44,033 nucleotides of DNA from Candidatus Woesearchaeota archaeon (GTDB taxonomy: Archaea; Nanobdellota; Nanobdellia; Woesearchaeales; UBA583), in NCBI GenBank assembly GCA_027858315.1, contig JAQICV010000038.1:1-44033 (forward strand), written 5' to 3'. Positions 27,266-44,033 of this stretch are shown piece by piece. The translations under genes were made by a program, and so were the position numbers. The notes beneath the pieces were generated by a model, which worked only from the letters and a program-made list of their open reading frames with translations, did no database searches and had not been told where the DNA came from. Each line of letters begins with the position of its first letter. The first letter of the stretch is position 1.

Positions 27266-27302
27266 CCTACTTGGAATACATTGTATTCCTAGTATAAATA
27301 AT

Positions 27303-30142
<2,840 letters not shown>

Positions 30143-30143
30143 G

Positions 30144-30170
30144 AATTAAAGCAATTTCATTATTTAACCT
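30144..30170 (+). other. 23S processing stem, 3' strand
   Basis: Complement of 27238-27265 apart from one bulged base. It ends just after the 23S gene and shows that the mature 23S is excised from a long helix. Confidence 0.8.
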
Positions 30171-41850: not shown

Positions 41851-42840
41851 ATGTTTTTTAGAAACAGAAAAGGAATTTCGGCAGTAATTGCAGTATCCTT
41901 ATTACTTGTAGTAAGTGTTGTTGCAGTCATTGGTTTTCAAAATTGGTTTCAAACATATCAAAGTACTATGTAATCAGATGTAGAAACTCAAAGTAGTTCG
42001 AATTCAGTTCCTAATATTAAGACAATCATTGGCGATAGTTTGTATATAACTACTAAAACATATGATTTAACAATAAGTAAGATTTTAATTGATAGTAAAG
42101 ATTGTTTAACTAATGTCTCTTTGAATGAGAGTCTAACTGAAGTCAATATTAGTAGTTGTCTTAATAGTGTTAGCACTTCAACTCCTTTAATTACTTTAAT
42201 TAGTGATGATTTTATAACTAAAGAAAGTGTTTATTTAGAAGATATACAGGTAAGTGTTGGAAGTCCTATGTCAACATCTTTAAGTTGTATAACAGATAAT
42301 GATGGAGATGGACAAATACTTTTGACTTGCGCTTTGTATCTTATGACTGATACAACTTATGAAGGAGATTTGGATGTAAATGATAATAATTCTACAATTC
42401 AAGTTGATATGTCTTGTATTTTTAATAATGATAAAAGTGGATGTCTTTCAAATTATGTAATTGATGGTTGTGGAAGTGAGACGGTTTTAGATTTAGGAAC
42501 AGGACTTTGTTGGGATTGGAATTTTAATAGGGATGGTACTAAAAATTGGGAAGATGCAAAATCTTATTGTACTGGTCTAACTACACATCCTTCAGGACAT
42601 ACTGATTGGTATTTGTCAACAAGACAAGAATTTGAAACAATAGTTGATTTAACAAGAACGGCTCCACATATCGTAGGAGGAAATACAATATTTTCATCAG
42701 TTGTAAGTAATTATTATTGGACAAAAACAACTTATGGTACAAGTACGACTTATGCGTTCTATGTCTATCTTCTCGATGGCATTTCTGACGGCCTCGGTAA
42801 GGGTGGCTACAATTATGTCGCCTGCTTGCGTAGACACTAA
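41851..42840 (+). pseudogene. Pilin-like DGR target gene with DUF1566/lectin-fold C-terminus, interrupted by in-frame TAA
   Basis: ATG 41851 opens with FFRNRKGISAVIAVSLLLVV, a class III (pilin/archaellin) signal and membrane helix. After 40 codons an in-frame TAA (41971-41973) interrupts, then the same frame continues open to 42840. The rest has a beta-rich region, GLCWDWNF, WEDAKSYC, DWYLSTRQEF and a C-terminal YYWTKTT...VACLRRH, the DUF1566 C-type-lectin-like pattern. The last 96 nt are a diversity-generating-retroelement variable region (VR1). The stop differs by one base from CAA. It may be a nonsense mutation, population variant or assembly error; translation from later TTG 42040 would lose the membrane anchor. 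Target-gene identity is good; functionality is open. Confidence 0.7.
42745..42840 (+). repeat. DGR variable region VR1
   Basis: 96 nt ending at the stop, aligning without gaps to VR2 (43437-43532). 26 differences by my count, 22 at codon positions 1 or 2. G+C is 46 of 96, well above the surroundings. Invariant codons are GCG, TTC, GTC, GGC, AAG, TTG, CGT and similar. Variable codons are of NNY form. Confidence 0.85.
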
Positions 42841-42876
42841 AAATTTCTTTGAAATTTTTGGGGAATTTTGAACTTG
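42839..42876 (+). repeat. VR1-associated hairpin and conserved tail
   Basis: AAAAATTTC (42839-42847) and GAAATTTTT (42851-42859) form a 9-bp stem with a TTT loop, then GGGGAATTTTGAACTTG (42860-42876), identical to the block after VR2. Comparable downstream hairpins are needed for target recognition in the Bordetella phage DGR. Confidence 0.7.
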
Positions 42877-42889
42877 AAAATAATAAAAA

Positions 42890-43532
42890 ATGAAAAAAAT
42901 GAAAAATAAAACTATAAAAATAATAAGTATATTGTCTCTTGTTATGATAATTTTTTCTTTATCAACTTTTGCATATTATACAAATATAAGTAAATTTTTT
43001 GTTGAACAGCAAAATGTTTATGTTGATGGAGAAGGCCAACACAGATTAGCAGAAGATTTTATTGAAGATGGGGTGTGGGAGTGGTACAATGCTAGATACT
43101 GTGACTGGACTTTGTTGGGATAAAGATTTAGATGCGGGTGCAATTGATTCTGGAATTAAGAAATGGGCATTAAATTCTGCTTATCCTGAACCTGTTTGGA
43201 CTGGAACAACTTATAATTTGGGAGTTCAAGTTGCAACAGATTATCTTGCATTTAAAGTATGTGATGATTTAACAACAGGAGGAAATAGTGATTGGAGAAT
43301 GCCAACAAGAGCAGAATTATTAACTTTAATTGATGAAATTGGCTCTATTGGTACTACATGTACTACTTTAAGTGGTTTCGGGTTTTTATATTGTCAGAAT
43401 AATTGGTATTGGTCTTCAAATCAAAGAGGAAGTTCCACGACTATTGCGTTCCGTGTCAGTCTTGGAAGTGGCAGTTCCTACGGCGGCGGTAAGACTGACA
43501 GCTATTATGTCGCGTGTTTGCGTAGAAACTGA
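42890..43532 (+). pseudogene. Second DGR target gene with DUF1566/lectin-like C-terminus, frameshifted
   Basis: The first part (ATG 42890, or 42899) has a signal peptide (hydrophobic about 10-26, ending STFAYYT). The domain continues in another frame from about 43071: CGSGTMLDTVTGLCWDKD, NSDWRMPTRAELL, NWYWSSNQRGS and VACLRRN to the stop at 43532. The frames join if one G is removed from GGGG (43070-43073), restoring DGCGSGT, the same motif as in the neighbouring target. The last 96 nt are VR2. The short G-run could be a slippage site, a decayed gene or an assembly error. No membrane anchor other than the signal peptide is seen. Confidence 0.7.
43437..43532 (+). repeat. DGR variable region VR2
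   Basis: Gapless partner of VR1, same length, ending at its stop. G+C 49 of 96. It encodes the lectin-like surface loop and the terminal VACLRRN. Confidence 0.85.
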
Positions 43533-43568
43533 AAATTTCAAAGAAATTTTAGGGGAATTTTGAACTTG
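43532..43568 (+). repeat. VR2-associated hairpin and conserved tail
   Basis: AAAATTTC (43532-43539) and GAAATTTT (43543-43550) form an 8-bp stem with an AAA loop, followed by the same GGGGAATTTTGAACTTG (43552-43568). Confidence 0.7.
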
Positions 43569-44033
43569 TTCAAAATTAACTGAACTTGGTAATTTGATGC
43601 TTTGGTTATTTATTCCTTAGAATACCCCACCTTCAGTCACTCATAAATTCGTTCGGTGCACTTTGAACTAGTTCAAAGAGTTTTAAGGTGGGGATGAATC
43701 ATAAATTTATGAAATTTATGGTCATTGTTTAACATTGTGAAACAATAAAATGAATATTCTAAAGAATGACTAAAATTTTGTGTAAGTGTAATCTCACAAA
43801 AGCTTAGAAATCAAAGATTTCTTGAATCCATCTTGAAAATCTCTGCAATACTCCATCATTTATGGTGGAGATAAGAGATTTTAGGATTTTTATTTTATTA
43901 ACAAAGGCTTAGAAAATTTTTAAAAATTTCTTGAATTTGGCGATTTAGTAAATAACTAACCTTTTAGCGAATTATATATTTGGAATGTGTCTCATATAAA
44001 CGACAACTTTATAAATAATGTTGTCTTATATAT
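43569..44033. other. Gene-free, hairpin-rich right end
   Basis: No ORF, template repeat or reverse transcriptase is visible. Structures include a 43625-43693 stem (CCCCACCTT/AAGGTGGGG) enclosing an 18-base palindrome CTTTGAACTAGTTCAAAG (43661-43678), an ATTGTTT/AAACAAT stem (43724-43746), and an AAAATCTC/GAGATTTT stem (about 43835-43881). A repeated GCTTAGAAA...ATTTCTTGAAT unit occurs near 43802-43827 and 43907-43936. Confidence 0.6.
44002..44025 (+). promoter_or_regulatory. TATA box inside an inverted repeat, outward-facing promoter
   Basis: TTTATAAATA (44008-44017) is flanked by GACAAC (44002-44007) and GTTGTC (44020-44025), a perfect 6-bp inverted repeat. A gene starting a little beyond the right edge is expected. 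The repeat could be an operator. Confidence 0.5.

Follow-up and report, generated by a model that had tools for sequence, protein, structure and literature searches.

Two adjacent genes in a Woesearchaeota genome end in regions, VR1 and VR2, that are very probably variable regions of a diversity-generating retroelement (DGR), written from a common template repeat absent from the assembly. The window, i.e. the whole 44,033-nt stretch of DNA that was analysed, is contig C38 of an archaeal bin (1.77 Mb, 95% complete, 4% contamination, 105 contigs). It carries an archaeal LSU rRNA at 27297-30148, and the archaeal SSU model was matched on contig C49. The DGR reading, the core of the original prediction, is strongly supported by a codon pattern held in common with real templates, a reverse transcriptase (RT) fragment, bAvd genes and a second A-directed template/VR system. 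The features of the region are as follows.

41851-41973, plus strand: 5' part of target gene 1, up to an in-frame TAA (41971-41973); its leader (MFFRNRKGISAVIAVSLLLVVSVVAVIGFQNWFQTYQSTM) is of the class III / archaeal type IV pilin type; direct reading
41974-42474, plus strand: target gene 1, pilin-family region 3' of the TAA, matching many pilin-leader proteins of its own genome and the same genus
42478-42831, plus strand: target gene 1, Lcl_C domain (PF07603, formerly DUF1566; E 3e-20)
42745-42840, plus strand: VR1, variable region at the C-terminus of target gene 1
42840-42858, plus strand: hairpin after VR1, 8-bp stem AAAATTTC/GAAATTTT, loop TTT
42860-42876, plus strand: conserved 17-nt tail after VR1, GGGGAATTTTGAACTTG
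42890-43532, plus strand: target gene 2, a hydrophobic N-terminal anchor followed by Lcl_C, the two linked over a +1 frameshift
43437-43532, plus strand: VR2, variable region at the C-terminus of target gene 2
43532-43550, plus strand: hairpin after VR2, stem as after VR1, loop AAA
43552-43568, plus strand: conserved tail after VR2, same as 42860-42876
43569-44033, no strand: stretch without an ORF of at least 60 aa, to the contig end

VR1 and VR2 align without gaps over 96 nt and differ at 26 sites, 11 at first, 11 at second and 4 at third codon positions, a recount that agrees with the pairing, the total and the 22 first- and second-position changes originally reported. Third bases of variable codons had been described as almost all C or T, and of the 13 codons with an amino-acid change 12 indeed keep the same C or T; only CTC/GGA at 42772 has a changed third base. 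The other three third-base differences are synonymous: TCT/TCC (42786), GCC/GCG (42822) and TGC/TGT (42825). Within the block 58% of residues agree, 15 of the 18 same-residue codons are identical and third bases agree at 28 of 32 (88%). Upstream, the two Lcl_C domains share 33 of 86 residues (38%) and 47 of 86 third bases (55%). The 5' boundary is sharp, with an abrupt onset of similarity at 42745, and GC3 is 53% and 50% in the VRs versus 12-14% in the portions of the two genes that precede them. Position bias, boundary and GC3 together point to a single template from which both blocks were probably copied, changes being limited to certain codons.

Taken alone, the codon position bias is modest (Fisher p = 0.028). 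The accompanying argument, that selection would instead place changes mainly at third positions, is valid for purifying but not for positive selection, which can also favour positions 1 and 2. Tandem paralogs under positive selection on C-terminal ligand-binding loops, with gene conversion of their 3' ends, could on these two grounds be proposed in place of a DGR. This is highly improbable, since it leaves unexplained the jump in GC3 from 12-14% to about 50% exactly at the 96-nt block, the AAY codon logic common to true templates, the hairpin and tail behind each VR, and the presence of a DGR RT and Avd in the genome. The further claim of a template A behind every difference is probably wrong for the three synonymous third-base sites and for the third base of CTC/GGA, all of which are more simply ordinary drift; an A origin of every difference cannot be falsified with two sequences alone.

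Placing A at the variable sites gives an inferred template, GCG TTC AAT GTC AAT CTT AAx AAT GGC, which was widened to the degenerate pattern GCNTTYAAYGTNAAYCTNAAYAAYGG and used to scan genome_contigs, one genome per species, over 84,980 species. Matches were found in three contigs (Lysobacterales, Stenotrophomonas and Luteimonas), and all three are DGR template repeats, set in an arrangement of upstream target genes, Avd-sized gene, template and DGR RT. Template-to-VR differences in these bacterial genomes, counted over five gapless VRs, fall at A in 74 of 74 cases; a sixth VR (L056), with a 3-nt length difference, was left out of the 74. The template begins about 530-540 nt past the last VR in the three cassettes. 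Among viral contigs there were five matches, four of them DGR cassettes as judged by A-directed VRs and/or a DGR RT, which brings the pattern total to 8 contigs with seven genuine DGR cassettes, most with A-mutated target genes. Of the ten Asn codons in the Stenotrophomonas template, nine coincide with variable codons of the window when the two are aligned, versus two of the eleven remaining positions (p = 0.0016). A pattern predicted from nothing but the window has thus recovered genuine DGR templates, whose target genes likewise stand in tandem, and the codon pattern suggests A-specificity for the window VRs as well. The single viral pattern match in L050 was rejected as a relative, the virus contig being unrelated, and neither the target protein nor the 3' end of the VR, used as queries, brought up a useful relative among viral contigs.

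Behind each VR a hairpin begins at the stop codon. Only two 8-bp hairpin sites of this type occur in the whole window, one per VR, and their AT-rich stems are weak (DNA z -2.6 and -1.2). The 17-nt tail is likewise present in two copies only, both 3' of VRs, in the 1.2 Mb of genome read. The stems of the two hairpins are identical and their loops exactly inverted (TTT vs AAA), as though one had flipped.

Both VRs form the ends of PF07603 Lcl_C domains by HMM. The leader of target 1 reads MFFRNRKGISAVIAV from 41851, with KGISAVIAV recognised by eye; no Pfam model matched the pilin region above cut-off. With a class III leader and a paralogous pilin-type family, target 1 falls among the archaeal type IV pilin-type proteins. 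This leader had been overlooked in the original prediction, as had a lesion in each gene, and the two targets are not intact ORFs. At the TAA of target 1, paralogs in the genome and genus carry F, L or I (e.g. MFSD vs M*SD). Target 2 has one surplus G (GGGG, 43070-43073) between the hydrophobic N-terminus and the Lcl_C domain, and correction of the frame restores a DG-CGSGT motif as in target 1 and in L044, an Lcl_C protein. The rest of the window was checked for further lesions by eye only. An AlphaFold model was poor (pLDDT 60) and a fold search gave no match, neither being informative on the fold.

With both targets interrupted and third bases drifting, a dead cassette is therefore a serious rival as regards activity, its likelihood being considerable if somewhat short of even. 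It is a sub-case of the preferred reading: the VRs would have been written by a DGR, the cassette would now be dead and the template, perhaps also the RT, lost. The in-frame TAA at 41971 and the +1 frameshift at 43070 are consistent with decay, as are the three to four non-A-like VR differences, compared with 0 of 74 in the comparison cassettes, and the absence of a template from a 95%-complete bin. Yet the VR reading frames and the post-VR elements are intact and nearly identical, and the lesions, each of a single base, may reflect true decay but also minority alleles or errors in the MAG consensus. Absence of the template is, moreover, expected from the assembly, in which contig breaks fall again and again on DGR parts: the start of C8 lies some 100 nt ahead of a VR, and C82 ends in a VR and, at its other end, in the RT.

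DGR machinery is found elsewhere in the bin. A DGR-type RT fragment lies at C82:3-566 (minus strand), on a different contig from the window VRs; it is the N-terminal half, runs off the contig end and is the sole RT fragment in the bin. Among PDB entries the fragment is closest to 8ub7, 'Reverse transcriptase' (E 8e-19), which is the BPP-1 DGR RT, and it shows 27% identity over the fragment to the annotated BPP-1 Brt and a GMPIGN.T motif. A profile search of the whole bin for the C-terminal half with the catalytic YxDD did not find it, and no RT was found in five same-genus MAGs, themselves incomplete. Two bAvd (PF22296) genes score over the cut-off, on C82 and C8, and none on the window contig. 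C82 also carries an FGE-type template, RGGNWNNGANAGAFALNLNNGPSNSNTNNGFRCS (C82:20941 to about 20830, minus strand), of which C8:104-215 is a VR with 15 differences, 14 at template A and one C to T. The hairpins that follow the VRs of C8 and C82 show a compensatory change in a base pair (ATGGC..GCCAT vs ACGGC..GCCGT). With a second DGR showing A-directed changes across separate contigs, the lineage therefore has the machinery.

C82 (L003/L051, 22 kb) looks plasmid-like because it encodes Cdc6/Orc1, a ParA-like AAA_31, an AbiE toxin-antitoxin, Fic and, by eye, a recombinase-like ORF. An RT/Avd core on this contig might serve in trans, rewriting chromosomal targets that include the window VRs via a second template lost in an assembly gap, a reading whose likelihood is somewhat short of even. 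It would fit the match of the C8 VR to the C82 template, the Cdc6, ParA-like and AbiE genes, and the single RT fragment in the whole bin. The C82 template, however, does not fit the window VRs, and a second RT could sit in the gap to the right of the window. Were C82 circular, closing its two ends would bring the RT fragment, bAvd and template together into a single compact cassette. Both FGE-type cassettes also contain, between VR and bAvd, a conserved gene of about 125 aa (L055, on C8, 342-710; L051, on C82, 13468-13842); the C82 copy has no Pfam match, and the gene may encode an additional accessory protein.

The cognate template of the window VRs was sought by BLAST of the inferred template over the whole 95%-complete bin, and in the window, C82 and part of C8; only the VRs themselves match. 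Neither a template repeat, an RT nor Avd was found in 43569-44033. The FGE-type template of C82 was rejected as the source, as the sequences do not match, and a join of C38 to C82 by contig-end overlap was rejected as there is no overlap. Of the parts that the original prediction expected in a locus continuing to the right of the window, an Avd-like gene does exist, on C82 and C8; the RT is half there, with the DGR-type fragment on C82 and the YxDD half absent from the bin; and a template repeat matching the invariant sites, with A at the variable ones, is lacking. Continuation to the right is thus unproven, the contig stopping 501 nt after VR2. Given this position of the contig end and the breaks at DGR parts elsewhere, loss of a local template at the break is plausible. 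As the template is missing and the MAG is incomplete and broken, the window features are filed as probable DGR targets rather than a complete DGR.

If VR1 and VR2 are DGR variable regions, an RT-Avd complex would copy template RNA with errors at A, and the cDNA would take the place of the VR, with the invariant 3' end and the stop-codon hairpin as anchors. This would put random residues at about a dozen sites, mostly template AAY codons, of an Lcl_C (C-type-lectin-like) domain, which would be displayed at the cell surface via the pilin-type leader (target 1) or the hydrophobic anchor (target 2). The shared template, the RT that serves it, surface display and ligand binding are parts that we infer. 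Counting against this explanation are the lack of a cognate template, the half RT, the three or four third-base differences, the interrupted ORFs, the lack of an RT in the five same-genus MAGs and the weak hairpins.

Pilin-leader proteins with interchangeable C-terminal domains form a large family in this genome (G000; C16, C19, C75) and in MAGs G001-G005. Their C-terminal domains, named by eye, include tandem SSWDVSSVTxMxxMF-type repeats and LamG-like, beta-propeller-like and FGE-like domains. A same-genus homolog (L078:381-1754, minus strand) has an intact 458-residue frame and an FGE/DGR-like C-terminus; because its end matches the C82 template poorly and no RT was found in that MAG, a DGR status is only suggested for it. 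A mobile, plasmid-borne DGR core that hypermutates archaeal type IV pilin-type adhesins in trans, via several templates and with interchangeable C-termini (Lcl_C here, FGE-type DGR-like in the intact pilin-type protein of the sister species), is conceivable though unlikely; if it were true, the archaeon would gain randomised pilus-borne binding sites. The other Lcl_C proteins (C36; L043-L045) were inspected for a VR pair, none was seen, and they were set aside.

Among known systems, the DGRs of Stenotrophomonas and Luteimonas (L056-L058; Stenotrophomonas sp. SKA14, PMC6642488) resemble the window in their tandem DUF1566/Lcl_C-like targets with an AF-x-V-x-L-xx-G ending, C-terminal VR and same variable codon positions. 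They have a complete target-target-(Avd-sized gene)-TR-RT order with intact ORFs, whereas the window contig has no template, Avd or RT, both its ORFs are interrupted and its target 1 has an archaeal pilin-type leader. DPANN DGRs (DUSEL4 Nanoarchaeota, PMC4372165; AvpA, PMC5006420) are likewise archaeal, with more than one target set per genome, a hairpin near the VR, fragmentary cassettes and possible action on several targets. The proteins targeted there, AvpA-like or orphan, have the VR internally and the hairpin inside the gene, in contrast to the Lcl_C targets of the window with a VR at the extreme C-terminus and a hairpin from the stop codon. The BPP-1 DGR (brt, avd, mtd, TR, VR; NC_005357) shares the RT and bAvd families, a C-terminal VR and a hairpin right after it, but is a phage system with all parts in one cassette, while here no template linked to the window VRs was found.

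DGRs in nanoarchaea (PMC4372165) and the CLec fold in archaeal DGR proteins (PMC5006420) have been published, and Woesearchaeota are said to be rich in DGRs (PMC8421398). It has also been described that one DGR can have many VRs and that DUF1566 is the most frequent target domain, with pilin-like targets mentioned by citation of earlier work (PMC6642488); novelty is limited because pilin-like and DUF1566 targets had both been mentioned. Archaeal clade-5 DGR targets are usually without a recognisable anchor (Roux et al. 2021, PMC8144416), so that an archaeal Lcl_C target with a pilin-type leader adds something useful, if incremental, to what is published. It would link targeted hypermutation with surface proteins that bear a pilin leader, in archaea whose DGR targets often lack such anchors (PMC8144416), and it opens a way to test how attachment might be varied in these cells. 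Breakage of assemblies at DGR repeats hides templates and reverse transcriptases.

A motif, CAGTCACTC followed after a few nt by TTCGTTCGGT, is shared by the stretch after VR2 (43634-43660) and that after the C8 cassette (C8 1693). It was rejected as a DGR part, being a dispersed genome repeat: it also occurs on C75, C98 and several other contigs, in about 10 places in 1.2 Mb, one of them inside the 5' part of a pilin-type gene on C75. It is possibly a small mobile repeat.
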